The translations under genes and the position numbers were made by a program. A stretch of 62,528 nucleotides of DNA from Acidobacteriota bacterium. GTDB lineage: Bacteria > Acidobacteriota > Terriglobia > Terriglobales > Acidobacteriaceae. The notes beneath the pieces are model-generated. The model had not been told where the DNA came from. It worked only from the letters and a program-made list of their open reading frames with translations, and did no database searches. The stretch covers positions 1-62,528 of the forward strand of contig JAJZDM010000008.1 in assembly GCA_021806005.1 (NCBI GenBank), read 5' to 3'. Positions 23,706 through 39,320 of the stretch are shown one piece after another. The first letter of the stretch is position 1. Each line of letters opens with the position of its first letter.

Positions 23706-24740
23706 ATGCAACTTCAGTTAAAGTTCCCTTTCGCCAAGGCCCCATGTTTCAAAGGAATCCTCCTCTTGCTCGCAATCGCCCAGGGCAGCATCGCTTCCGC
23801 GTATGCGTCCACGCGCAGACCCTGCGATATCTTCGCCCCCCAGACCCCCTGCGTGGCGGCCTACAGCACCACCCGCGCTCTTTATCGCAACTACACCGGC
23901 CCGCTGTACCAGGTCATGCGTCAGTCCGATAAAGCTTCCATCAACATCGGCCTTCTCCGCGACGGTTACGCCGACGCCTCCCGGCAGGATACATTCTGCG
24001 CCCACACCTCCTGCGCCATCCTCAAGATCTACGATCAGTCTCCCGGACATAACGACCTGATCCCTGCCCCTCCCGGCGGAGCAGCCCATGGTCCCGGACC
24101 CAACGGGTACGACCTCCCTGCTGCGGCCAACGCGCTTCCGCTCTCCATACACGGACATAAGGTCTTCGGCATCGCCATCTCTCCCGGAGAGGGCTACCGC
24201 GACGACGCCCCTGTCGGCACAGCGATCAACGGCCAGCCTGAAGGCGTCTACATGGTCACCTCCGCCCTCCATCTGAACTCGAAGTGTTGTTTTGATCTGG
24301 GGAACGCCGAGATCAACAACCTCGACAACGATGCCGGACACATGGACGCCATCAACATCATGTGCAAGGGTGACCCATGTCAGCCCAATGCCGGGCTTGA
24401 TATGGAGAATGGCATCTACGGCCATCTGCTGGTGCCTGCCGATACCAGCTTTGTCACTGACATGGGCGCCAACGACGGCCAGCACTCCTACGCCATCTAC
24501 CAGGGCAACGCCCAGTCCGGAAAACTGACGAGCACCGGCGCCATCCCTCTTCCCAAAGGCTACCAGCCCATGCTGCAGGAAGGAGCGATCATCCTCGGCA
24601 CCGGCGGCGACAACAGCAACTGGGCCTCAGGTTACTTCTTTGAGGGTGTGATGACCACAGGCATGCCAAACGCCGACGCCATGCAGTCCGTGCAACGCAA
24701 CATCGTAGACGCCCGCTACGCCGGTCAACTCAAGCCATAG
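23706..24740 (+). CDS. Secreted GH54 alpha-L-arabinofuranosidase, catalytic domain only
   Basis: A signal peptide (FKGILLLLAIAQGSIASAYA) precedes the GH54 start motif RRPCDIFAPQTPCVAAYSTT and TRALYRNYTGPLYQV, closely resembling fungal AbfB. The vicinal cysteines are Cys194-Cys195 (KCCFDLGNAE). The likely nucleophile is Glu234 (DMENG) and the likely acid/base is Asp302 (GGDNS), by comparison with the Aspergillus enzyme; these assignments are by eye. The enzyme removes arabinofuranosyl side groups from hemicellulose. At 344 residues it lacks the C-terminal arabinose-binding domain (CBM42) of fungal homologues. The released pentose could feed the sugar-acid genes a few kilobases upstream. GAGG lies 11 nt before the ATG. 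Confidence 0.9.
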   Translation: MQLQLKFPFAKAPCFKGILLLLAIAQGSIASAYASTRRPCDIFAPQTPCVAAYSTTRALYRNYTGPLYQVMRQSDKASINIGLLRDGYADASRQDTFCAHTSCAILKIYDQSPGHNDLIPAPPGGAAHGPGPNGYDLPAAANALPLSIHGHKVFGIAISPGEGYRDDAPVGTAINGQPEGVYMVTSALHLNSKCCFDLGNAEINNLDNDAGHMDAINIMCKGDPCQPNAGLDMENGIYGHLLVPADTSFVTDMGANDGQHSYAIYQGNAQSGKLTSTGAIPLPKGYQPMLQEGAIILGTGGDNSNWASGYFFEGVMTTGMPNADAMQSVQRNIVDARYAGQLKP

Positions 24741-24803: not shown

Positions 24804-24962
24804 AGCCATGGAAGCCTCGCTGCCTGCCGGGGCCCTACAAGCCCTCTGAGCTTATTCCTTATCCAGCCTGCGAATGCTCCGCCATGGGGAGGCTACTCCT
24901 TGTGGCGGTCTTTTTCTGAGAACCGCAGGGTAGATCATGCTACTCAGCCTCTCTTTATAAGC

Positions 24963-24993: not shown

Positions 24994-25758
24994 ATGGCAG
25001 CACCGCAGTTCGCCTTTCCGTCCGAGACCTTACGATCCCTGATCCTGGCTTGTACGGTTGCATGGATGGCTGGGCCTCACATAGTCGCTCAATCCGCTCC
25101 GCCAACGATCACGCGCCAGATGTTCACCCCTGAGACGGACATCTCCCTTGGCATATCGGGTCAGCTAACACCTACGCGCACCTCCTTGCAGTATGCTGAA
25201 TCTCTCTCCGGCCCCACGGTGTCCCAAACGACACAGGGCACATCTCCATCGGCGGGCGTCCTCGGCGTGATCCATCAGGCCATCTACTCATGGCTTGGCT
25301 ACAACATCAACCTTGGCTACAGCCGGTTTCCGGAGAGGTACTCGCGAGGGGAGGCCTCCAGACCCACGTCTCCCACCGAATATCCGCCCTCCAGCTTCTC
25401 CCAGGGCTCAATCCGGACGAACATGTATGAACTGACCATGGCCTATTCCATTCAGGGGCCGCGAACAGAGCGATGGAGTACCTCCGCGCAAGTCGGAGCC
25501 GGTGGCCTCTTCTTCCTCCCGATCCATAACCCCTCTCCTTTCGCCGTGCAATGTCGTCCGGCAATGGTCTTCGGAACCGGGTTCACCTACATGCTCTCGT
25601 CGCATCTCAGCCTCCGGGCGGAGTACCGCGGCCTCTTCTACAAGAACCCCACCTTTCACAACTCAAACACGTCTGTACCCATCTCAGACTTCTTTGTCGT
25701 CACCAATGAGCCTACCGTCAGCGTCGTCTACATCTTCGGCCACAAGAGCACGAGATGA
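24994..25758 (+). CDS. Predicted outer-membrane beta-barrel protein of unknown function
   Basis: The 254-residue protein has an N-terminal hydrophobic export signal (about residues 13-33, ending HIVAQSAPP). A chain of amphipathic strands rich in Tyr, Ser and Gly follows (YNINLGYSRFPERY, YELTMAYSIQG, MVFGTGFTYMLSSHLSLRAE). It ends with a strand VSVVYIFGHKSTR, the pattern of small OmpA-like or OmpW-like barrels. AGGAGAG is placed 5-6 nt before the ATG. It is 46 nt upstream of the sugar-phosphate transferase gene and probably in the same transcript, so a link to surface polysaccharide is possible. No specific family was recognised. Confidence 0.65.
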   Translation: MAAPQFAFPSETLRSLILACTVAWMAGPHIVAQSAPPTITRQMFTPETDISLGISGQLTPTRTSLQYAESLSGPTVSQTTQGTSPSAGVLGVIHQAIYSWLGYNINLGYSRFPERYSRGEASRPTSPTEYPPSSFSQGSIRTNMYELTMAYSIQGPRTERWSTSAQVGAGGLFFLPIHNPSPFAVQCRPAMVFGTGFTYMLSSHLSLRAEYRGLFYKNPTFHNSNTSVPISDFFVVTNEPTVSVVYIFGHKSTR

Positions 25759-25804
25759 CCCGGCAGATTCAACGGCTGTCACCCGCAATCGAGGACGCAA
25801 ACGC

Positions 25805-26701
25805 ATGGCTTTGAAACAAGGGAACGTCGATCTGTCGCATACTTCCCATCCAACCACCCTCTTTCTCATTCGCGGCGCCAAGCCACAGGCGGACATGCAT
25901 CAGGAAGATCTGAGCCGTTGGTCCCGTTCCTCCTTCAAACGCCTCTTTGACTGCATTTGCATCCTCTGCTCTCTCCCGGTCACGCTCCCCGTACTCATCG
26001 CCACCGCCATCGCGGTCAGGCTCGCCTCTTCGGGCCCTGTCCTCTTTCAGCAGATACGCGTCGGGCGCGGTGGAAGGCATTTTACGATCTTCAAGTTCCG
26101 CACCATGCCCGTCTCGTCAGGCTCGGATCCTCGCCCTGACGTGACAACCGTCGCCAATCAGCGATTCACGCCGATCGGGCGCTTTCTGCGGCGCTCGAAA
26201 CTCGATGAACTGCCCCAACTCTTCAACATCCTGCGCGGAGATATGAGTCTGGTTGGGCCACGTCCAAAGCTCCCCAGCCACCAGATGGACCCACTTTCCT
26301 GCCGCCCTGGCCTCACGGGACGAGCGACTCTCGCATTCTCCAAAGAAGAAGAAGCTCTTAGTTCTTTACCACACGCAACCTTGGACGCCTTTTATCGGAG
26401 CGTCGTTCTTCCGGTAAAGCAGACTTTGGACGCTCACTACATGCGGCAAGCAACCTTCCGGTCTGATCTCTCACTCATCTTTCGAAGCCTTGCCGCCAAG
26501 GATACCGGCCGGGATATCATCACTCTGCTCTCGCCCGGGATAGTCGGTGCCCATCCGGACAAACCAAGCGATCCAACCACAGCCCTCACTTTAGAAGCGC
26601 AATCGCGCGTCGATCTGGATGGACCGTGGACCGCCGGGCTCATAGAGGGAACTGGTCGAGCCGAAACTCTGGTTCAGCATCAGGGCAGCCTGCCCGAATA
26701 G
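25805..26701 (+). CDS. Bacterial sugar transferase (polyprenyl-phosphate hexose-1-phosphate transferase)
   Basis: The 298-residue protein fits the WbaP/EpsL-type catalytic domain that starts exopolysaccharide or O-antigen repeat synthesis on undecaprenyl phosphate. It has the membrane-inserted segment FDCICILCSLPVTLPVLIAT and the core motifs GPVLFQQIRVGRGGRHFTIF and FKFRTM. RRSKLDELPQLFNILRGDMS and LVGPRP follow. The chain then departs from the usual RPGITGWAQV (here RPGLTGRATLAF). GAGGA lies upstream of the ATG at 25805. Its last 37 codons overlap the convergent TonB-receptor gene by 111 nt, which is unusual. No other polysaccharide genes are adjacent. Confidence 0.87.
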   Translation: MALKQGNVDLSHTSHPTTLFLIRGAKPQADMHQEDLSRWSRSSFKRLFDCICILCSLPVTLPVLIATAIAVRLASSGPVLFQQIRVGRGGRHFTIFKFRTMPVSSGSDPRPDVTTVANQRFTPIGRFLRRSKLDELPQLFNILRGDMSLVGPRPKLPSHQMDPLSCRPGLTGRATLAFSKEEEALSSLPHATLDAFYRSVVLPVKQTLDAHYMRQATFRSDLSLIFRSLAAKDTGRDIITLLSPGIVGAHPDKPSDPTTALTLEAQSRVDLDGPWTAGLIEGTGRAETLVQHQGSLPE

Positions 26702-29700
26702 GAAGTCGGTGGTCACCGCATTCATGTAACCGAAGTCCGGATGATTGAACAGGTTGTAAGCCTCTCCACGCAGCTCAAGACCCAGCCTGCCTCGGATCGC
26801 GATCTCCTTGCGGAAGTCGATGTTGATTTGTTGCTCCCCAAAGCCACGCAGCTTGTTCCTGGGCGCATCTCCGGCCGAACCCGGCGCAGGCAGCACAAAA
26901 GCTGGATTCGCGGCGTTGGGGCCGCCATTGAACATTCGACCGCCAGGATACTTTGACCCATACAGGTAAAGTGGTCGTCCAGGGATCAGATCATCGCCGC
27001 TGTAGTAGCGGTTGCCCGTCGCAGGGTCCGAGTAGATCGTCCCCAGTGGCGTCACCGGGAATGCGGTTCGCAAGGATAACAGACCGTCTGCGCCCCACCC
27101 GCCAAGGACGCCCCTCCTCAACCAATTGCCAGAAAGCTTGCGCTCGGTCCACGAGACCGCTGCCTCCAGATTCTGCCGAACGTCGAACTCCGAATTGCTG
27201 CGGGTGAGCGGCCATGCGGGGTCCGTGGATCCGTAGTCCAGCGCGTGGGACCATGTCCAGTCCGCAAGCGCCTGTACTCCCGGGGAGATCGACCGCTGAA
27301 ACTTCACCTGCAGCGCCTGGTAATTCGAGGTGATTCCGTTCGGGAAGGAGATGACCTCACCAAACTCCGGATTCCCGGCGCTTACATTCGTACGCCGTTC
27401 CAGCAACAACCTGCGTCCGGCCGCACCAACCCAGGAGGCGGTGAGCGCCTGATCTTTTCCAAAGGCCTTCTCCACCGAACCATTCCACTGCAACACAAAC
27501 GGTAGCTGCAGGTGCTGTGGGAAGTCGAAGACCGGACTAGCGGTATACGGCGCGGCCGGAGCCGCAGAGAAATCGAGCTGAGCGGTTGTCACCGGCACGG
27601 GGACGTTCTCCAGATGCGAGGTCGCCGAAAAGCCCAGCGCGCTGAAAGCGCCCATCGCCGCGCGGTTATCCGTTTCGAAGAAGACCCCGCCGCCAGCCCG
27701 TAGCACCAACTCCCGGCCAGGATGCCTGTCCGCGCTCCAGGCAACCCCGAACCGAGGAGCAAAGTTGAGCCAGTTCGTCTTCCACAGCGGAGAGCCGCGC
27801 GGAGCAAGCTGCAGCGAAGCAGGAGAAGCCACGTCCCCACGCAGCGCGTAAGCATCGTTCCCTTCCCGTCCGTGCGGCGGCGGGTTCACCTCCCAACGCA
27901 CTCCCGGCGATAGCGTCACCTCTCGCGAAACGTGCCATTCATCCTCTACAAACCCGGCAAACTCGTTGAAGACCGGTGTCGCCTTTTCGGCCTTCGTGAT
28001 CGAGATGTCAGAGGCCAGATTCTGCAGAATCGACGGCTCATTGAAGTAATCCGCCTCAATCGTCAGCGAAGGAGGGTCTACAGTAGAGAGCAGATGCCGC
28101 ACATCCAACCCAAACTGCAGCAGATGATGCTCCCGCTGATACGCGATCGTGTCCCTCAGATTCCACTCGTCGAGCGACCCGGATGCCTCATCCGTATTGA
28201 CCTCAGAGCTGCCGGCTCCGGCGATTTGAAGAAAGAAATCGCTGCTCTCAGAGCTTGAACCCGACGGCGCCCCCAGCAACACATTCAAGGGAAACTTCTC
28301 GAAACCGTCGTAGATCAAATAGCCGATCGTCTGCGTCTGCAACAAGGAGTGAGTCGTTGCGTACCCGGCTCGCAGATCGTTGGCGATCGCCGAAGAGATC
28401 TGGGCCGTCCAGCCCGCGGTCAATGTCTGTGTATGGACGGAGTTGAGAGTCAGAGAGGCCAAGGATGCCGATTGGCTGTTGCTGGGTGTATTGCTGTACC
28501 GGATAAAAGCGGATGACCCGCGAGTGAACGTATGGTCGAGCCGGACGGCAACCGCATCCACACTGTCCGGATAAGGTGTTGGATTCTCACCCGCCGCACT
28601 GAGTCCCAAGTGGGGAACCGCCAACCTGAGGCTCGTCGTATTGTAGGCAAGTAGCGGAAGAATCGGTTCAAGCGCAGGTGGCGCCTCGGTGAACATCTCG
28701 CTTGAGGGCACAAACTGCACAAATAGACCCGTTGGCTGCTCAACCTGAAGCCCTTCATAGGAGAAAAAAAGAAACGTTCGGCTCAATCCATGGTCGATTC
28801 CAGGCAAGCTCAACGGAAACCCTAACGTACCGCCAAAATCATTCTGGTGGAACGGCATCGCGAAATATTGATAACGAAGGAACCCTGGATAGTACCGTAT
28901 AAACCAGTCAGCGGCGTCGGCCTCAAAGTTCCTGAAATAATCGAAGAATGCGCCATGGAACGCACTCGTTCCCGCCCGGGTGAGCAGACTGAACTGCCCA
29001 CCCGGGCCGCCGCCGTACTCCGCAGAGTACGACGAGCTGAGAACCCGGAACTCCTGCAGGGCGTCAACCGATGCAAGGCTCTGGGTCGTGCCGATAGCCG
29101 TTGTACCCGGCAGGTCGCCGGCGCTCGCAACCTTCTCATGCCCAGCCAGCGAACCGATGCCGATATCGGCAGACACGCCATCCACAGAGTAAGAGTTCGC
29201 CTCCGGCCGTTCGCCGTCCACGCTGAAATCTCCGTGACTCGCTCCCATCCCGGTAAAGTTCTGTGGCGTCTGCGTCAAGACCCCCGGCGTCATCGAGATA
29301 AGATCCTGAAAGCTGCGTCCGTCCAACGGGATGTTGGCCACAAACGTCCTGTCGACGATCGTGCTCATCGTGCCATCGACGGTGTTCAGCGCGAGCCCGG
29401 AACCATTCACCGTCACCGTCTGAAGGATGGAGCCGACCTGCATACGGATCAGAAGGTCTTTTGTCTCTCCAACATTCAGCGTCAAACCGGCGATCTGCAG
29501 CGTCCTGAAACCACTCCGCGCAATCTGCAGCACATACGTTCCCGGAAAGACGCCGGGGAGAAGAAAACCACCATAGCGGCTGGTCTCGCAATCATTCTCC
29601 GCTCCCGTCTGCGTATTGATCAGCTTCACCAGCGCGCTGCGAATCCGCGCTCCCGTCCCATCCTCCACCACCCCAGTTACATTCGCCGTACTCACCTGAG

Positions 29701-29749
29701 CCTGCACAGACCCGGCCAGCCATAGCATGGCCGATGCCAGCAGCCTCAT
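26591..29749 (-). CDS. Oar-like TonB-dependent receptor, partner of the sigma/anti-sigma fusion
   Basis: From the ATG at 29749 the 1052-residue protein starts with a signal peptide (MRLLASAMLWLAGSVQAQ). A carboxypeptidase-regulatory-like domain follows (NVTGVVEDGTGARIRSALVK, residues ~20-105), then a plug domain (SFQDLISMTPGV, VDGVSADIG) and a large beta-barrel with Oar-type features (GGPGGQFSLLTRAGTSAFHG; LRGEAYNLFNHPDFGYMN). It probably imports oligosaccharide or other large ligands across the outer membrane. It directly follows the sigma-factor fusion gene. A TTG at 29782 with GAGGG just upstream would leave a 7-nt gap and is an equally good start. The 3' end overlaps the convergent sugar transferase by 111 nt. 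Confidence 0.88.
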   Translation of the reverse strand: MRLLASAMLWLAGSVQAQVSTANVTGVVEDGTGARIRSALVKLINTQTGAENDCETSRYGGFLLPGVFPGTYVLQIARSGFRTLQIAGLTLNVGETKDLLIRMQVGSILQTVTVNGSGLALNTVDGTMSTIVDRTFVANIPLDGRSFQDLISMTPGVLTQTPQNFTGMGASHGDFSVDGERPEANSYSVDGVSADIGIGSLAGHEKVASAGDLPGTTAIGTTQSLASVDALQEFRVLSSSYSAEYGGGPGGQFSLLTRAGTSAFHGAFFDYFRNFEADAADWFIRYYPGFLRYQYFAMPFHQNDFGGTLGFPLSLPGIDHGLSRTFLFFSYEGLQVEQPTGLFVQFVPSSEMFTEAPPALEPILPLLAYNTTSLRLAVPHLGLSAAGENPTPYPDSVDAVAVRLDHTFTRGSSAFIRYSNTPSNSQSASLASLTLNSVHTQTLTAGWTAQISSAIANDLRAGYATTHSLLQTQTIGYLIYDGFEKFPLNVLLGAPSGSSSESSDFFLQIAGAGSSEVNTDEASGSLDEWNLRDTIAYQREHHLLQFGLDVRHLLSTVDPPSLTIEADYFNEPSILQNLASDISITKAEKATPVFNEFAGFVEDEWHVSREVTLSPGVRWEVNPPPHGREGNDAYALRGDVASPASLQLAPRGSPLWKTNWLNFAPRFGVAWSADRHPGRELVLRAGGGVFFETDNRAAMGAFSALGFSATSHLENVPVPVTTAQLDFSAAPAAPYTASPVFDFPQHLQLPFVLQWNGSVEKAFGKDQALTASWVGAAGRRLLLERRTNVSAGNPEFGEVISFPNGITSNYQALQVKFQRSISPGVQALADWTWSHALDYGSTDPAWPLTRSNSEFDVRQNLEAAVSWTERKLSGNWLRRGVLGGWGADGLLSLRTAFPVTPLGTIYSDPATGNRYYSGDDLIPGRPLYLYGSKYPGGRMFNGGPNAANPAFVLPAPGSAGDAPRNKLRGFGEQQINIDFRKEIAIRGRLGLELRGEAYNLFNHPDFGYMNAVTTDFLFGQAALMLNQSFGSTSSLYEPGGPRSIQIDARLRF

Positions 29750-29789
29750 CAGGACACGCTGACCAGCCCGAATCACCGGCAACTTACCC

Positions 29790-32700
29790 TCAGTGGATCG
29801 GTGCGGGTGACGAACGATCTTCAGCACGAATCCTGCCTCCACTGGCCCCCTCTCCCCCATCCTTCAGGTGCTCGGCAAAGCGCTCCATGCTGGCTGCCTC
29901 CGTCAGCGGAATCGAATCCGCCGAAGACTCCAGCACAGCCCTCGCGCCTTCTTCCGGGACCGCATTCATGTCTGACGCAAACGCTGCGTCGATCCGTCGA
30001 TTGAGCCTCTGCGTCTTGTTGAGCAGAGCCTGAGATGCCTGCGCGAACTCCGCCGGGCTGCTAATCCCGTCCGGCGCCGCCGAGGTCCCAGGCGCACACC
30101 GGATGCCGATGAGGTTCATCTCGCCCGCTAGCGCGCGCAACTCCCCCTCCAGCGCCGTCGCGTGACCCTCAACCATCTCTGCCCACTCACGGCGGGAGGC
30201 GCCATCCACCCGGTACAACTCCGCTGCAGTAAACTCATTGCCCAGACGGTCCAGAGCATAGGCGTGCTGCAGAGCGGCCTGTGCGTGGGTCAGCCCTTCA
30301 CCTTCAAACTTGGCGACCGCCGCATCCACCGCCAGATCGGGACGTGGGTGCTCTTCAAAGTACGCACGGAGCACGGGCTCCGCCAGCGGCGGTCGCGCCA
30401 CCAGCTCATACACCGTGGCGGACCGGGCATCTTTCTCCACATCTTTCTGCGTCAGCGCGCCCACCTCCGCCGGACTGTCAAGGTGAACTTCGAGCGCGCG
30501 TTGGTCGGGTAGCGATCGAAGTGAGGCCAGCAAATCATCCTTACGCTCTCCTCCAGAGAGAGATCCTGTCACGCGGATTCGCCCGCCAGGCACTCGTTCC
30601 ACCTGAATCGGCTCACCGGTATCCATAGCCAACTCATGCAGTTCGTAGAGGACCCCGATATCGAGCGCAGCCAGCCGCACGTCTTCCGCGGTGGAGAACC
30701 CGCCGCCGGCAGGGGCAATCGAAGAACGCGCGATGGGCTCTTCTTCCGATCTCAAAACACCCGGGTCGAAGACCTCCTCTGGAACCGAAGACGCAGGCTC
30801 CTCCTCCAATCGGGTCTGCATCAACCGAACCTCCCGAACGGTAGAGCCCGTGCGCATCCGCAGCAACTCTCCAACCGGCATCCAGCTCCGATTCAGGATC
30901 AGTGTGACGTACACCAGCGGCTGCTCCCTCCCTTCCTCTACGCCGCCAACCAGCCGATAGCCCTCGCGATCAGCCGTCACGCGAATCCGCTGATTCACAA
31001 TCTCGCGAAACGCGCTCGGCGACAGGCCCTGCTTCCAACCAGGATCAGAGGCCAGTAGACGATCTTCGCTCGGGGCACCCGGACGGATGGTCGCGGCATA
31101 CGACCCGGCAACATTACCCTTCCACTCCGCCGCCACCAGCCGATGATGGCTGTCATACAGTCGCCGCATGGATCGGCCAGTCACACCATCCCTCCACAGA
31201 TCGACTGAACCCTCAGCCACCGGCTGCCCTCCAGCTCCAACCTCCTCCAGGGAGATCTCCTGATGCTCTGCATGACCCGCAAGCATCCCCGCCTCAGCCC
31301 TCATCGAACGTTCCAGAATCGTCTGCGCATCCGGCGGACGATGCGTAGAGCGCCACAACAGATAGCCAACGCAGCAAAGCGCCGGCAGCGCCAATCCCCA
31401 CCCGAACGCCGGCCACAGATGTAGCCTGCGCCGCCTGGAACCCTCCAGAACCTCTCGTCCTCGACGCACCTCGGACGCCAAGCTGTCCCCTGCCGGCAGC
31501 GTCTCCTGCCTCGCGCCGTTCGCCGTCGCCTCAAGCTCCTCAACCTCATCCCCCGCAGCATTTGGCGCAAACGCACGATCAAAGTAGGACAACTCGCAGT
31601 TCAGCCCCAGGCCATCGAAGACCAGTCTCAGCTCCAGCCGGCGATCGTCGCTGAGTTCAACGCGCTGCTGGAGCGTGTGCGGCCCCGCCGGAGGGCGGTC
31701 ACGGATGGAGAGCATCGCCAGACGCACATTCTGCTCAGAGAACACCTCGACGAACTCCACGGAATCCTGTGAGCCTGCCCTTACCTCCAGGAGGCCAGAC
31801 TCTCCGCGGACATCGTGAGAGCCCACAATCCTTCCATTCACCGCGATGGATAGCGTACCGGGCCGGTGTTCACTCAGGCGGCGGAGACGCCCTTGCAAAG
31901 CTCCGATCCGCCCGCGCCCAGCGCCGCTTCCTCTCTTCACAACCAGTGTGGGCGAAGGATCGATGCCGTCCAAGGCATCACGCTGGTGCAGGGTCGGTCG
32001 GCGCAGGTGGCGATCCACCAGTTCCAGACAACGTTCGCAGCTCACAATGTGGGCCAACAGCGAGCACGGAAGCGGAGCCGGGTTGGCCGCACCGTAGTGG
32101 CCGAGCAACTCCTCCTCTGCAAGGCACTCCCCTCGCCGCGAAGCCAGAATGGCGCATCGCAACTCCCGGAACAACTCCTCCGACGGGATCGCCGTCCGCA
32201 TCCATGCAGGCCGTGGAGCCTCCCGCCGGTGGCCGATGCGAAGCTTCTCCGGCGCCTCCAGATGGATCCTCAACTCCGAGCGGGCAGCCTTCAACTTGTT
32301 GTAGATCGCCGCCAAAGGCAGGCACGCCAGCTCCGCAATCTCGCCATGAAAGTAGCCGTGAAAAAAATGCAGTATGAAATAGCTGAAACCCTTCGCCTGT
32401 TCCCTGCGCCAGATCGAGTAGGAACAGATGCGCCGCAGAACATTCTGGATCTCAAGCGAATCCAGCCGCTGACCCGCGTCCTGGGCAAAACGCAGGGAGT
32501 CGCAGTCCGCAACGCTCACAAAACGCACCGCCTCTCGCGATGCCCGTGCCAGCTTCGACACGTACAGGTGACGGAGACACGTATAGAGGTAACCTTCCAG
32601 GTTGGCTATCCGGCTGCAATCAGGCGGAGACAGCGTCAACTGCAGACAGAGATCGTGAACGATCTCCTCCGCCAGGACCTCATCGCCACGCGCCAGCACC

Positions 32701-32798
32701 CTGCCCCACATCTGGAGCTGGCCATAGCGGTCCTCCAGAAGCGTCTCGATCGGTTCGGAAGTCGCCGTGGCCGGCCATCTGGAGGTGCTCTTGTTCAT
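29790..32798 (-). CDS. Single-chain ECF sigma factor / zinc-finger anti-sigma / transmembrane sensor fusion
   Basis: The 1002-residue protein has several parts in order. Residues ~21-95 resemble sigma-70 region 2 (LAEEIVHDLCLQL, NLEGYLYTCLRHLYVSKLAR). Residues ~112-182 resemble region 4 (ILHFFHGYFHGEIAELACLP, AAIYNKLKAARSEL). His250-Cys254-Cys257 (LLAHIVSCERCLELV) matches an anti-sigma zinc finger. Residues ~310-410 are beta-rich. One transmembrane helix lies at ~461-483 (LWPAFGWGLALPALCCVGYL). The rest, ~500 residues, should face the periplasm and begins with a segment that could be a LolA/RseB-like fold (weak). GAGGGTG precedes the ATG at 32798. The next gene downstream is a TonB receptor. 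Sigma and zinc-finger calls are fairly secure; the periplasmic domains are not identified. Confidence 0.78.
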   Translation of the reverse strand: MNKSTSRWPATATSEPIETLLEDRYGQLQMWGRVLARGDEVLAEEIVHDLCLQLTLSPPDCSRIANLEGYLYTCLRHLYVSKLARASREAVRFVSVADCDSLRFAQDAGQRLDSLEIQNVLRRICSYSIWRREQAKGFSYFILHFFHGYFHGEIAELACLPLAAIYNKLKAARSELRIHLEAPEKLRIGHRREAPRPAWMRTAIPSEELFRELRCAILASRRGECLAEEELLGHYGAANPAPLPCSLLAHIVSCERCLELVDRHLRRPTLHQRDALDGIDPSPTLVVKRGSGAGRGRIGALQGRLRRLSEHRPGTLSIAVNGRIVGSHDVRGESGLLEVRAGSQDSVEFVEVFSEQNVRLAMLSIRDRPPAGPHTLQQRVELSDDRRLELRLVFDGLGLNCELSYFDRAFAPNAAGDEVEELEATANGARQETLPAGDSLASEVRRGREVLEGSRRRRLHLWPAFGWGLALPALCCVGYLLWRSTHRPPDAQTILERSMRAEAGMLAGHAEHQEISLEEVGAGGQPVAEGSVDLWRDGVTGRSMRRLYDSHHRLVAAEWKGNVAGSYAATIRPGAPSEDRLLASDPGWKQGLSPSAFREIVNQRIRVTADREGYRLVGGVEEGREQPLVYVTLILNRSWMPVGELLRMRTGSTVREVRLMQTRLEEEPASSVPEEVFDPGVLRSEEEPIARSSIAPAGGGFSTAEDVRLAALDIGVLYELHELAMDTGEPIQVERVPGGRIRVTGSLSGGERKDDLLASLRSLPDQRALEVHLDSPAEVGALTQKDVEKDARSATVYELVARPPLAEPVLRAYFEEHPRPDLAVDAAVAKFEGEGLTHAQAALQHAYALDRLGNEFTAAELYRVDGASRREWAEMVEGHATALEGELRALAGEMNLIGIRCAPGTSAAPDGISSPAEFAQASQALLNKTQRLNRRIDAAFASDMNAVPEEGARAVLESSADSIPLTEAASMERFAEHLKDGGEGASGGRIRAEDRSSPAPIH

Positions 32799-33053
32799 TC
32801 ACCCTCTAAGAGCAACCTTCCCCCACAAATCTACCCTCACCCTGTGGAAAATTACTCCATCTTCTTCCTCAAGGACGCCGGCACCAAAATCCCGGCCGGA
32901 ATGGCACAACTTCGTCCCGTTCCAATCAGTTCGTCCGGATGCTGGCTCGATTCTACGCCGCGCTCGCCCCTCCCAAACCAGGGCGCCCCCGCGCCCTCTC
33001 AAACAACCAACCGAAGATCCCGCGCTCCGTATCTGCTGTGCGGCACAGCGCAC

Positions 33054-34400: not shown

Positions 34401-34940
34401 TCATCGGGAGGGGTTCCTGTATCCGTGCTCAGCCAGGCGCTTGCCCATCTGCGCATACATCGATGGATCCTGTGGCTGCCACGTACCCAGGCCATCCACA
34501 TAGCGGTTGTACATGCAAAACGCCGCTGCGATCAGCACCGTGTCGTGAATCTCCAGGTCCGTCGCTCCCAGGCCGCGCGCCTGAGCGACATCCTCCTCGC
34601 TCACATTCTTTCCCCCGCTCTGCACCTTGCCCGCAATCTTCAGCAACGCCCTCAGCTTCGCCGAGACCGGTGCCGTCTCCAGATCTTCCTTCACCCTCTG
34701 CACCGCCTCTTCCCCTCCCAGGTGCGCAGCCGCGGCGGCTCCGTGGCTGGTCTGGCAGAAATAGCAGTCGTTGCGCGCGGAAACATAGGTCGCAATCAGC
34801 TCCCTCTCTCCCGGCGTAAGCGTCCCTGGCTCATGGAGCAGAATATGCGCCAACTCGCGCATCGGCTTGGCTGTTTCAGGCCGAAATGCAAATCCAGCGC
34901 TGATCCCCGGCAATCCTTCTGGTAAAGCAATATGTGCCAT
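34401..34940 (-). CDS. AhpD-like carboxymuconolactone-decarboxylase-family protein, paralogue 2
   Basis: The 179-residue protein begins MAHIALPEGLPGISAGFAFR and carries the redox motif CYFCQTSHG (CxxCxxxH). The conserved AAAFCMYNRYVDGLG near the C-terminus is shared with paralogues at 22725-23297 and 35010-35582. AAGGAG lies 6 nt before the ATG. It is 69 nt downstream of paralogue 3 and 6 nt upstream of the MFS gene, all on the minus strand, so the three are likely one transcript. It is the most divergent of the three copies. Expected role: peroxide or organic-hydroperoxide defence, or handling of a small organic acid exported or imported by the MFS protein (inference). Confidence 0.85.
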   Translation of the reverse strand: MAHIALPEGLPGISAGFAFRPETAKPMRELAHILLHEPGTLTPGERELIATYVSARNDCYFCQTSHGAAAAAHLGGEEAVQRVKEDLETAPVSAKLRALLKIAGKVQSGGKNVSEEDVAQARGLGATDLEIHDTVLIAAAFCMYNRYVDGLGTWQPQDPSMYAQMGKRLAEHGYRNPSR

Positions 34941-35009: not shown

Positions 35010-35582
35010 TCAACGGGTTGAGGCCGCTGCCTGCCCGTAACCTTTGCCAGCGCTCACGTACCCCTCGCGTGCAACCTGCTTGCCGCGCTCCCTGTAACTG
35101 GCTTCATCGCGCGGGTATGTCGTTGCCAGGCCATCGACATAACGGTTGTACATGCAGAAGGCAGCCGCAATCAGCACCGTATCGTGAATCTCCACGTCCG
35201 TAGCCCCGTACTCGCGCGCCAGGCCAACGTCTTCGGCGGTCACGTTCTTTCCGCCTCTCTGCACCTTTGCCGCAATCGCCAGCAGTGCCTTCAGCTTCTC
35301 TGAGATCTCTGCTTGGCGAAAGTCCTCCTTCACGCGTCTCACCACCTCCTCATCGCCATCCAGATGTGCAGCCGCAATCGCACCGTGGCTGGTCTGGCAG
35401 TAATAGCAATCATTCAGCGACGAGACATAGGTGGCAATCAGCTCGCGCTCTCCGGCGGGCAGAGAATGCGGTCCGTGCAGCAGCACCTCTGCCAGTTCAC
35501 TCATTGGCCCGGCAATCTCGGGGCGGAAAGCCATTGCGCCGCGAATCCCCGGCAAACCCTCTGGAAGTGCGATATGAGGCAT
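35010..35582 (-). CDS. AhpD-like carboxymuconolactone-decarboxylase-family protein, paralogue 3
   Basis: The 190-residue protein begins MPHIALPEGLPGIRGAMAFR, with CYYCQTSHG as the redox centre. It is closer to paralogue 1 (22725-23297) than to paralogue 2: both share RERGKxVAREGYV near the C-terminus and have the same length. It is the first gene of the AhpD-AhpD-MFS group and lies 132 bp downstream of the Oar-like receptor gene on the same strand. The tail YGQAAASTR is variable between copies. Reaction unknown, as for the other copies. Confidence 0.85.
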   Translation of the reverse strand: MPHIALPEGLPGIRGAMAFRPEIAGPMSELAEVLLHGPHSLPAGERELIATYVSSLNDCYYCQTSHGAIAAAHLDGDEEVVRRVKEDFRQAEISEKLKALLAIAAKVQRGGKNVTAEDVGLAREYGATDVEIHDTVLIAAAFCMYNRYVDGLATTYPRDEASYRERGKQVAREGYVSAGKGYGQAAASTR

Positions 35583-35714: not shown

Positions 35715-38700
35715 CTAAAAGTAAAACTTCCCGGCAAGCTGAATGGCGCGCGCCGGCTGCGGATCGCCACTGGGGTTTACCGGCTGGTCCACGGAACTGA
35801 TCGCCCCGAATGCCGGGGCCCCGGCGCCATAGTTGCCATTCGGATTGGCGAAGTTTGCGTGGTTGAATGCGTTGTACGCCTCCAGACGGAGTTGCACGTA
35901 CCGGCTGGCCTCCGGTCCGCCAAGCGGGATATTTTTGTAAACCTCAACATTCGAGTAATTGAATCCCGGGCCATGAAAGAAATTCCGTTTCACGTTGCCG
36001 AACGTGCCAATAGGCTCCTGGGAGAACGTCGCCGGATTGAACCAGTAATTGCCCGGTCGCCGCGGATTCAGCGTCTTGATTCGGAAGGTCGATGTGTTGG
36101 GCACGTCCGGGCAATTCACGAAGCTGAACTCATCGCAATACAGCGAGTTGTACACTCCGCCATCGTAGATCGTCACCGGGAAACCGCTCTGAAGAGCGGT
36201 GATACCCGCGAAGTTCCACCCGCCTAGCAAGCCCCGCGCCAGCGGGCCAGCCCCCAGCCCATGCCACCACGGAAGAGCATAATCATACAAAGCCACCAGC
36301 CGGTGGCGAGCGTCATACGCCGAATCTCCATAACTCAAATGACGGAAGCCGGGCACGTAGTTCGTTCCATAGCCGTTGGCGACCGAATCCTCAAGGCTGG
36401 AAGCATCATCTAGCCCATGGCTGTACGTATAGGCAAGCGTGAAGTACAGTCCGTGCGTTGGCGCCTTCACCAGAGAGACTTGAAGCGCGTTGTAGTTCGA
36501 GGAGCCATTGGTAAACATGCCGCCGATCGACAGGTAATCGGGCAATCCGTTGGGAAACAGGCCTGGAACCTGCGAACCCGGTACCGTTGCAGGCTGAGTC
36601 TTGTCCCCCGGAAAGTAGAGCGACTGCACAGAGGCCAGTTGCACGCAGGTGAACGTGCTGCCCTCGAGTTGGATCGGCGCGCCTGTTCCCGTGCCGCTCA
36701 GGCAGGCGTCGTGTCCGGCCTGCGTAATCCTGTCGCCCTCTCCGGCGCGCATCAACCTCTGCCCCAGCGACCCCACATAGCCAACCGTCAGCACCATGTT
36801 GGCGGCCAGCGACCGCTGAACATTCAGGTTGAAGTTATACGTGTAAGGAACATCAAAGGCGGAGGTAAGATTGTCCATCTCCAGCGGATAGAGTGAGGCG
36901 AAGCTGACATTCTGGCCCGGTCCAGGAACTTGATACGGGAACGGATTCGCCGCATAGGATGCTCCCGGACGATCTGCAATGTCCGCAAACGGATTGGCAA
37001 AACTAGGACTACCACCCAGCCCCGCCGCGCCCACACTGTTCAGCGAAAAAGGAGGATCGTTCGAATTCTCCTGCGTACCCTCCGCCTGCGGCCGATTCCA
37101 ATACACCCCGAACCCGCCACGAAGAACGAACGCGTGCTCGCCCGGCGGTCCGAAGACCGGGCCCAGCGCCTTGGCGGGAGACCAGGCAAAGCCCACTCGC
37201 GGAGACAGATGGTCCCAGTGCGTCACCGGCCCGCCATTCCGGTTACATCCCGGATCGCCGGGATACAGCAGACCCGGCGGCGCATTGGTGAACACCTTGG
37301 ATTGAACATCGCTGGGCAGCCAGCAGGTAACACCCACACCGTCATATTGCAGATTCTCAAACGGAGTCTCGGTGTCATAGCCAAGGCCATATGCCAGCGT
37401 CAGCGTGTCGGAGACCATCCAGTGATCCTGCGCATACGCGTAGTATTGCGAGGCCCGCACGTCGACAAAGTAACCCGAGCCCTGATTGTAGGTAGCCGGA
37501 ATGCCAAGTAGAAAATCCGCTGCCGGATCGCCCGTGCTGTACGTTCCAGAGCCTACAAAACTGAAGGCGCCACTGTTGTCGGAGTAAAACGGATTGCTGA
37601 AGACAAACCGTTCGATGTTGGCTCCAAACTTCAGGCTGTGGCTCCCTGCCACCTTGCTGAAGTTATCGAAGTAGGTATAGTTCTCATCCTTGCGCGGCTG
37701 CGGCCCATTCGTGCTGAAGCCCAGCGCAAAGTATCCGGTGACATTGATGAAAGGCAGCGTGCCGGCCGCCGCGTCCTGAGGAACAATATTGAACCCAAAC
37801 GACGAAGGAGCCGCCAGCGTCGTCGGCGCCGGTTCCAGTTCGGCGTAGTTGAAACGGAAGTACCCCGCACGTAGTTCGTTCACCGTATTGCTGTTGATCA
37901 GCCGCGTCCACGATGCGTTGAAGATCTTGATGTGCGATGCATTGTCCGCCTGGAATCCCGGCAGGTTCGCCCCGGTCCCTGTCGACTCGGTTGATGGCAG
38001 CGGCAAGGTGTTCGTGCTTGGGCTTGAATCAAAGATCGTCGAGGCCCACAGTGCATCCTTGGAGGTCAACTGATCATCGATGCGGATAATCCCCTGATCG
38101 TCTCCCGCCGTATTCGGAGCATTGAAGTTGTAGTAGTTGATTCCGCCGCTCGTATAGTTCGACTTGGGGACATACTTGTTAAGCAGGTTCAGTGCGATCG
38201 AATTGAAGTCCGATACCGGCACCTGCGAGTTCGGAAAGCATGTGTTCCACGCTGTTCCTGCCGGACAAAACCCCGCCGGACCCTGCATACCGCCGGGAAA
38301 CGGAATCGGATTGCTCGAAAACCCTCCGTCGGAGGCAAAGTCGCCGCCTCTTTGCTGCGTGTCGAACACCTGCGTAAGCTGCGTCTGCGCAGTGCGGCTG
38401 CGCAGACCCTGGTACGCCACAAAGAAGAAGGCATGCCCTCTGCGGATGGGCCCGCCCAGAGTGCCGCCAAAGACGTTCTGGTGAAACACTGGCCGGGTTG
38501 CAGAGAAGTAGTTCCCATTATTCAGAAAGGTGTCACGATAGAACTCAAAGCCGTCCCCATGAAACTGGTTTGTCCCACTCTTCAACGTCTCATCCACAAT
38601 CGCTCCGGAGTTGCGGCTGAACTCCGGATCCAGCGTGCTGGAGATGATGTTGATCTCCGCCAGTGCATCCGGATTCACCGTAATACCCGGCTGGTTGAGC

Positions 38701-39320
38701 AGAATGTCGTTGATATCCGTTCCATCCAGTAGGTAGGAGTTCTCCTGCGTCTGGCTTCCATTGGTAGAGAATGTCCCCTCGCGATCATTGGACTCGACCA
38801 CTCCGGGCGCGGTCTTCTGCAGTTCCACCGCATCCCGGCCAAGCAGCGGCAACTCTTCAATCTCGGCTGCCCCCACCACATGCTTGAGCTGCGCATCCGA
38901 GGTCTCCACCTGCACTGCGGAAGAGTTCACCTTGACGGTCTGCGATGCGGCGCCGACTTGCAGCTTCCCATCGATCTCACGCTCCGAGCTCAGGTCCAAC
39001 ACAACGCCGCTCACGACCCGGGTTCGAAAACCCTGCGCCGCGATGGTAACGGTGTATGGCCCCCCGATATGCAGGTCGGGGAACATGTAGTATCCATCCC
39101 GATCGGTCTTTCGCACACTGGATATCCCGGTGCTGCCATTGGTCACTGTGACTGTAGCACCGGCAAGCAGCGCTCCCGTCGGATCAGCCACAATTCCATG
39201 GATAGAGGCGCTCGTCGCCTGGGCTTGAACCATCGTAGACGTTACAAACCCAGCTTCGCCTGTCAACAAGCAGAGTACGAAACAGACAGAGACACTCCTA
39301 AGGTTCCCTCTCAGGCGCAT
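35715..39320 (-). CDS. Oar-like TonB-dependent receptor with carboxypeptidase-regulatory-like domain
   Basis: At 1201 residues this is a full-length acidobacterial Oar-type receptor. A signal peptide (SVSVCFVLCLLTGEAGF) is followed by the regulatory-like domain (SIHGIVADPTGALLAGATVT, residues ~38-125). The plug has ELQKTAPGVVE and YLLDGTDINDILLNQPG. The barrel carries the typical AFFFVAYQGLRSRTAQT and GFAWSPAKALGP segments. The C-terminus LRLEAYNAFNHANFANPNG ends in a hydrophobic strand closing with Phe. Such proteins are thought to take up oligosaccharides or glycoconjugates; the ligand is not predictable. No sigma or anti-sigma gene adjoins it, in contrast to the receptor at 26591-29749. 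Confidence 0.9.
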   Translation of the reverse strand: MRLRGNLRSVSVCFVLCLLTGEAGFVTSTMVQAQATSASIHGIVADPTGALLAGATVTVTNGSTGISSVRKTDRDGYYMFPDLHIGGPYTVTIAAQGFRTRVVSGVVLDLSSEREIDGKLQVGAASQTVKVNSSAVQVETSDAQLKHVVGAAEIEELPLLGRDAVELQKTAPGVVESNDREGTFSTNGSQTQENSYLLDGTDINDILLNQPGITVNPDALAEINIISSTLDPEFSRNSGAIVDETLKSGTNQFHGDGFEFYRDTFLNNGNYFSATRPVFHQNVFGGTLGGPIRRGHAFFFVAYQGLRSRTAQTQLTQVFDTQQRGGDFASDGGFSSNPIPFPGGMQGPAGFCPAGTAWNTCFPNSQVPVSDFNSIALNLLNKYVPKSNYTSGGINYYNFNAPNTAGDDQGIIRIDDQLTSKDALWASTIFDSSPSTNTLPLPSTESTGTGANLPGFQADNASHIKIFNASWTRLINSNTVNELRAGYFRFNYAELEPAPTTLAAPSSFGFNIVPQDAAAGTLPFINVTGYFALGFSTNGPQPRKDENYTYFDNFSKVAGSHSLKFGANIERFVFSNPFYSDNSGAFSFVGSGTYSTGDPAADFLLGIPATYNQGSGYFVDVRASQYYAYAQDHWMVSDTLTLAYGLGYDTETPFENLQYDGVGVTCWLPSDVQSKVFTNAPPGLLYPGDPGCNRNGGPVTHWDHLSPRVGFAWSPAKALGPVFGPPGEHAFVLRGGFGVYWNRPQAEGTQENSNDPPFSLNSVGAAGLGGSPSFANPFADIADRPGASYAANPFPYQVPGPGQNVSFASLYPLEMDNLTSAFDVPYTYNFNLNVQRSLAANMVLTVGYVGSLGQRLMRAGEGDRITQAGHDACLSGTGTGAPIQLEGSTFTCVQLASVQSLYFPGDKTQPATVPGSQVPGLFPNGLPDYLSIGGMFTNGSSNYNALQVSLVKAPTHGLYFTLAYTYSHGLDDASSLEDSVANGYGTNYVPGFRHLSYGDSAYDARHRLVALYDYALPWWHGLGAGPLARGLLGGWNFAGITALQSGFPVTIYDGGVYNSLYCDEFSFVNCPDVPNTSTFRIKTLNPRRPGNYWFNPATFSQEPIGTFGNVKRNFFHGPGFNYSNVEVYKNIPLGGPEASRYVQLRLEAYNAFNHANFANPNGNYGAGAPAFGAISSVDQPVNPSGDPQPARAIQLAGKFYF

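Follow-up and report, generated by a model that had tools for sequence, protein, structure and literature searches.

A putative single-chain sigma/anti-sigma regulator beside a TonB-dependent receptor in the Acidobacteriaceae

Introduction

The FecI-FecR-FecA system is made up of three genes and relies on a FecR domain and on an STN domain in the receptor. The locus described here, located in a 62,528-nucleotide (nt) stretch of DNA (the window) from contig JAJZDM010000008.1 of an Acidobacteriota bacterium (GCA_021806005.1), resembles this system in that a predicted sigma factor, a membrane anti-sigma factor and a TonB-dependent receptor are found in one place, but it differs in that only two genes are involved and neither a FecR domain nor an STN domain was found. 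The first of these genes encodes a protein of 1002 residues, which, judged by sequence, is probably a single-chain sigma/anti-sigma regulator of the adjoining receptor, the two forming a two-gene cell-surface signalling system.

Single-chain sigma/anti-sigma proteins are already known. In Pseudomonas putida, IutY (ECF243) is described as a sigma/anti-sigma fusion beside the TonB receptor IutA, whose sigma part is released by the proteases Prc and RseP when the receptor meets aerobactin (PMC5411451, PMC9249621). The likeness is that sigma factor and membrane anti-sigma factor lie in one chain next to a TonB receptor; however, IutY is described as a protein of 374 residues with a FecR-like periplasmic part and a receptor with a signalling domain, whereas the window protein has 1002 residues, a zinc-type Cys/His motif and no FecR match, and its receptor lacks STN. 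For the extracytoplasmic function (ECF) groups ECF52 (SCO4117) and ECF48/53 of Actinobacteria, a single chain is described that carries a sigma factor, zinc finger, transmembrane (TM) helix and extracellular domain (PMC8999054, PMC5826349), an order that profile, motif and hydropathy indicate here too. No outer-membrane receptor is involved there, and the extracellular part of ECF52 is described as a proline-rich stretch together with a carbohydrate-binding module. Finally, in lasso-peptide isopeptidase (Atxe2) clusters the peptidase is described together with a TonB receptor and a sigma/anti-sigma pair (PMC9266682).

A first-pass annotation of the window had set the tethered sigma factor against three-gene systems of the FecI-FecR-FecA type. 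A tethered sigma factor is not new in kind, as IutY and ECF52 precede it; the combination of a zinc-type domain with an STN-less receptor appears to be a new variation on these systems. The acidobacterial genome paper PMC3174227 names, in its available part, separate sigma and receptor genes only, and a literature search, which did not cover the 2021 ECF classification, returned no title on an acidobacterial fusion beside a receptor.

Results

Domain layout of the fused protein

The minus-strand frame 29790-32798 comprises 1002 codons and is open throughout, with zero internal stops (Table 1). The window protein alone matched Pfam Sigma70_r2 at E=0.0043 and Sigma70_r4_2 at E=0.13, both below the gathering cut-off, and the NCBIfam models TIGR02985 (8e-6, residues 38-180) and PRK12537 (3.6e-5), again below cut-off. 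The doubt that these weak single-protein scores cast on the sigma assignment is removed because its relatives, 39 fusions from genomes of the same family, and the family profile do match sigma models. Sigma70_r2 was matched by 34 of the 39 at E<=0.1 (best 7e-13) and Sigma70_r4_2 by 11 at the same threshold, and with the family profile, ECF sigma structures in the PDB were found for region 2 at 8.4e-9 and for region 4 at 7.2e-5. V47, L75, F145, E153 and R173 are conserved in >=90% of the fusions. The N-terminal part can thus be firmly assigned, at the family level, as an ECF sigma module with regions 2 and 4 and without region 3, as the first-pass annotation had proposed.

The same annotation had recognized an HxxxCxxC anti-sigma-like zinc finger behind the sigma module. 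The motif itself holds up well: H250, C254 and C257 are invariant in 39/39 fusions, position 225 is Cys in 37 and His in 2, and the complete pattern typical of zinc-binding anti-sigma (ZAS) domains, HxxxCxxC plus an upstream Cys or His, is present in all 39. The corresponding Pfam domain, zf-HC2, was found in 0/39 fusions at E<=0.1; a single early match belonged to locus L083, and was gone once this locus was excluded from the fusion set. Therefore, the zinc reading is based on the motif and on separate homologues, one of which (P0004) passes the zf-HC2 cut-off, and on these grounds an anti-sigma domain of the zinc type is likely.

Hydropathy predicts a single TM segment (464-482 in the best window, with a mean of 1.61), followed by 517 residues from residue 486 onwards, in agreement with the about 500 extracytoplasmic residues expected. 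Both halves of the protein were folded from two-row alignments (window protein and L009), giving models with a mean predicted local distance difference test score (pLDDT) of 36.5 and 34.0. The proposed central beta-rich domain is visible as predicted strands spanning residues 314-404, but only in the low-confidence model with mean pLDDT 34.0, so that this part of the layout is tentative. Foldseek returned nothing at E<=0.001 for the periplasmic model; its weak matches included the BON proteins DolP and BonA, which were not used as evidence. Weak BON-type Pfam matches occur in 1-2 of the 39 fusions, and a BON-like fold is the sole, weak lead to a named fold for the periplasmic part. The profile checks suggested for this region found no Pfam support for FecR or LolA/RseB in the window protein or the 39 fusions, and the same holds for a proline-rich stretch or carbohydrate-binding module of the ECF52 type.

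Conservation and spread of the fusion

A full-length copy of 1004 residues with 79% identity is present in G023, a metagenome-assembled genome of Granulicella sp. The ratio of nonsynonymous to synonymous substitution rates (dN/dS) between the two is 0.25 overall; by region it is 0.14 for both the sigma and the zinc part, 0.15 for the beta part, 0.67 for the surroundings of the TM helix and 0.27-0.45 for the periplasmic parts. A search among near relatives matched 8 of 61, mostly partially. A profile built from three fusions was then run on 398 genomes of the family, of which 89 matched, many through an ordinary sigma factor or the periplasmic half alone. Reading of the loci yielded at least 39 fusions of 837-1027 residues in 29/398 genomes; since two candidates were scored per genome, the family counts are lower bounds. 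Among 396 genomes sampled across the phylum, nine or more carry a fusion, including G631 and G695 from outside the family; the fusions of these two also precede a receptor, at -4 and +148 nt.

Outside the 39, both the fused gene and the receptor of G377 are broken into pieces, and the G190 copy is truncated by a contig end. Locus L083 (G122; L083:1073-3694 (+)) was rejected as a fusion, as a split-type sigma factor there runs into the anti-sigma factor via a shift within region 4. It stayed in alignment A3, which was used for the phylum-sample search, the motif run by expectation maximization (EM), the quick tree, the first zf-HC2 scan and the analysis of dN/dS and upstream blocks, and in the receptor scan; it was excluded from the co-variation analysis, the careful tree and the repeated Pfam, PDB and motif conservation counts.

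The receptor and its co-variation with the periplasmic half

The receptor open reading frame (ORF) is listed from 29860 and so overlaps the fused gene. M38 at 29749, ahead of a signal-peptide-like stretch, is the likelier start, which leaves a gap of 40 nt to the stop of the fused gene and agrees with the receptor placed directly downstream on the same strand in the first-pass annotation. Also the domain content described there was recovered: the receptor matches OMP_b-brl_4 at 2.1e-111 and CarboxypepD_reg at 1.6e-13, and no STN match was found at E<=1 in Pfam. All 39 family fusions have a same-strand receptor downstream. The distance is between -89 and +67 nt in 36 fusions; in L056 it is +329, behind an ORF that is perhaps its shifted tail, in L055 the receptor lies inside an over-long ORF, and in L051 it is cut by the contig end. 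The receptor of L070 is a fragment, and those of L052 and L082 run off the contig. Of the 36 receptors scanned (35 next to fusions and one next to L083), all contain OMP_b-brl_4 and CarboxypepD_reg, and STN was absent from all at E<=0.01.

Co-variation was measured on 33 fusion/receptor pairs (L083, L016 and L081 left out). The rank correlation of distances with the CarboxypepD_reg domain was 0.66, 0.58 and 0.60 for three periplasmic stretches, compared to 0.26 for the sigma part and 0.18 for the zinc/beta part. Partial correlations of the periplasmic stretches, given sigma, zinc/beta and barrel, were 0.46-0.48, with 0/500 permutations as high, against 0.13 for the sigma part (5/500) and -0.01 for the zinc/beta part. 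The first periplasmic stretch retains a smaller partial correlation with the barrel (0.19, 0/500). The co-variation is compatible with the periplasmic half touching the receptor domain that would face it, which it supports without proving, and it lends support to the view that the periplasmic half communicates with CarboxypepD_reg. We know of no signalling role for this domain, and a literature search combining CarboxypepD_reg with TonB-dependent and anti-sigma found none.

A promoter-like motif in common with a predicted second target

Within the clade of the window, 7 of 8 upstream regions carry the block GGGTAG[AG]T[TC] 33-38 nt ahead of the start, with CTCTT or a near form following after 15-16 nt. 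In the eighth member, L050, the motif falls just within the listed ORF, the true start of which is probably further downstream. The block was found in 0/32 upstream regions outside this clade. An EM run on 36 upstream regions (near copies L016, L070 and L081 and the short L075 left out) gave GGTAGAT-N16-CTCTT with a log-likelihood of 86, versus 46-50 for three block-shuffled sets, which had fewer starts and rounds. This result replaced an earlier motif reading, an A-rich block before GGGTAGATT; an earlier genome pattern starting GGGTAGATT had detected only the gene's own site, the second site reading GATC.

Scanning the window with the pattern shortened to CTC returned 2 sites versus 0.04 expected, a number reached in 0/100 shuffles. 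In eight whole clade genomes the exact pattern AGGGTAGAT-N14-18-CTCTT occurs at 11 sites and the reversed pattern at 2, both in G023, the motif being almost confined to this locus. Five of the 11 precede the fused gene and four precede homologous barrel-like ORFs of about 255 residues, which occur in three arrangements: convergent with the operon (the window and G023), behind the receptor and on its strand (G338), and divergent (G371). Apart from these four, the eight genomes contain no close homologue of the barrel ORF (E<=1e-55 for the four; E>=1e-12 for all others). Such a barrel gene is missing from 4/8 clade genomes. One of the two remaining exact sites lies near the operon in G338 and the other in G365. 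There is no exact match in G226, and in G023 and G371 the site upstream of the fused gene departs from the exact pattern. The motif predicts co-regulation of the fused gene and the barrel gene, which is a smaller claim than that the sigma factor reads it, and supports the larger one, that the fused protein would drive its own operon and the nearby barrel gene.

In G365, the motif and sigma-gene-like first codons (L144:741-769 (+)) stand before a 687-residue surface ORF with Kelch and immunoglobulin-type (Ig) repeats, which looks like a copying of the promoter together with the gene start. The motif is strong in the clade of the window only, and other clades carry other conserved blocks; one of these (L010, L051, L054, L055) has its own upstream block, GGCGAATAT...GATTCGC, with partly inverted symmetry.

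Split relatives and sigma phylogeny

The periplasmic part, whose domains could not be named with confidence in the first-pass annotation, is no orphan: at 22 loci of relatives a homologue is encoded by a separate anti-sigma-like gene (21 of 581-658 residues, one broken), and at 21 of these 22 it adjoins a sigma ORF. A receptor lies downstream at some of the split loci and not at others. At L084, L086, L089, L091, L093 and L096 the split sigma and anti-sigma-like genes are followed by an ORF of about 1306-1323 residues with a lipoprotein-like start, and no receptor.

The careful tree unites 41 fused sigma parts and one unfused sigma factor in one clade (support 100/99) and places 23 split sigma factors in a separate one (98/97). 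The unfused sigma factor sits inside the fused clade on a long branch, so the fused ones alone are not a clade; an earlier quick tree had put the fused parts on one side of a branch. In the distant genome G729 the zinc/beta/TM part is matched by a 458-residue ORF (95 bits), behind which lies a sigma ORF of 195 residues (125 bits); no receptor was seen beside the pair. Since these two neighbouring genes correspond to one chain here, they agree with the sigma/anti-sigma reading. Given the long branch, the arrangement may predate the fusion or may be a later split.

Proposed mechanism and alternative explanations

Taken together, the sequences show that an ECF sigma module, a conserved Cys/His motif of the zinc type, a single TM helix and an extensive periplasmic part are kept as one chain beside a receptor, an arrangement that looks like a compact sensor switching on uptake genes. 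By analogy with IutY, the zinc-type domain would hold the sigma part silent at the membrane in the resting state, a change in the receptor would expose the periplasmic half to a periplasmic protease, and an RseP-type protease would then cut within the membrane; RseP and Prc family members score above cut-off in the genome of the window. The freed N-terminal fragment, its zinc-type domain removed or loosened, would join RNA polymerase and turn on the operon and the barrel gene. It is possible, although we would stop short of calling it probable, that this represents an acidobacterial signalling class whose single-chain sigma/zinc-type anti-sigma protein reads its TonB receptor through CarboxypepD_reg instead of STN, and drives a dedicated promoter common to its own operon and a barrel gene.

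Several observations weigh against receptor-dependent signalling by this protein. Known systems signal through STN, which the scanned receptors lack, and the fusions give no zf-HC2 match. That the sigma factor reads the motif is something we infer. Cleavage within the membrane would leave the zinc-type domain attached to the sigma fragment, so a further step would be needed. The co-variation, finally, may stem from exchange of the periplasmic half and receptor as one DNA block.

The alternative that survives best, which we consider clearly less probable, retains the same single-chain protein but has its periplasmic half sense envelope stress, a peptide or a lipid directly, the receptor being a target gene and not the sensor. 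The lack of STN in the 36 scanned receptors, the large periplasmic part with its weak BON-like lead, and the split relatives that precede a large lipoprotein-like ORF in place of a receptor would all fit this view, whereas the receptor downstream of 39/39 family fusions and the co-variation of the periplasmic half with the periplasm-facing receptor domain speak for the receptor as sensor. It is improbable that the protein acts from the membrane without release, or that its sigma factor no longer works: the weak single-protein sigma match and the Pfam region 4 match in only 11/39 fusions point that way, but the sigma part has a dN/dS of 0.14, the five residues from V47 to R173 are conserved, and a common promoter-like motif is present. 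A frameshift artefact joining two genes, of which L083 with its region 4 part out of frame is one real case among the loci, is very improbable given the full-length copy with 79% identity, the 39 fusions and the low dN/dS across the joint (0.25 overall).

With only two genes, a predicted promoter and a second target that is likewise predicted, the system opens two questions to direct test: whether such receptors signal, and how a sigma factor still joined to its inhibitor is switched on. The relevance may extend further, as receptors of the OMP_b-brl_4 barrel family are numerous in the genome of the window (53 matches at E<=1e-20, some being pieces of a single gene).

Gene neighbourhood

The features of the locus are listed in Table 1.

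Table 1. Positions of predicted features within the window.
Feature	Position	Strand	Basis
Single-chain sigma/anti-sigma gene, 1002 residues (predicted)	29790..32798	-	ORF reading, NCBIfam and family-level profiles
Sigma regions 2 and 4, about residues 17-186	32241..32750	-	NCBIfam match 38-180, family profile
C225 ... H250xxxC254xxC257, zinc-type anti-sigma motif	32028..32126	-	Conservation over 39 fusions
Beta-rich cytoplasmic region, residues 296-404 (tentative)	31587..31913	-	Secondary structure, low-confidence model only
TM helix, about residues 459-482	31353..31424	-	Hydropathy
Periplasmic part, residues 486-1002	29793..31343	-	Location beyond TM segment; homologues encoded by separate anti-sigma-like genes
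BON-like alpha-beta-beta-alpha-beta stretch, residues 703-793 (tentative)	30420..30692	-	pLDDT about 60 there, weak BON-type Pfam
TonB-dependent receptor, likelier start	26591..29749	-	ORF list and Pfam
CarboxypepD_reg domain of receptor	29438..29680	-	Pfam 1.6e-13; co-variation
Promoter-like motif AGGGTAGAT-N16-CTCTT before fused gene	32808..32837	-	Clade upstream comparison, pattern scans
Second motif copy, spacer 15	24927..24955	+	Pattern scans
Outer-membrane-barrel-like ORF, predicted second target	24994..25758	+	Motif-bearing homologues in 4/8 genomes; Pfam OMP_b-brl E=0.009

Some relatives carry an S9-type peptidase after the receptor, which recalls the Atxe2 clusters. The Atxe2 isopeptidase model was the top match for 9 of 10 ORFs chosen by hand behind receptors at a subset of loci (L064, L065, L066, L068, L072, L073, L076, L053 and L045), but the scores were 64-160 bits versus a cut-off of 400, and there is no such peptidase beside the window operon. 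Because the model also matches 11/14 control genomes below cut-off, and the genome of the window 13 times, this is only a hint of peptides as ligand for some members. Other ORFs at the Pfam-scanned loci are of the thioredoxin type (L062, L063), GDPD (L079) and PMT_2 (L047). At L120 and L123, ORFs judged by eye to be M16-peptidase-like follow the receptor.

Directly behind the barrel ORF in the window is a sugar transferase gene (25502-26701 (+), Bac_transf 9.5e-49), whose 3' end overlaps the end of the receptor gene on the opposite strand. An alpha-L-arabinofuranosidase B catalytic domain (2.4e-105) is encoded at 23706-24740 (+). Two similar small ORFs at 34401-34940 and 35010-35582 (-), by eye of the AhpD/carboxymuconolactone decarboxylase type, sit between a major facilitator superfamily gene and a second receptor at 35715-39320.

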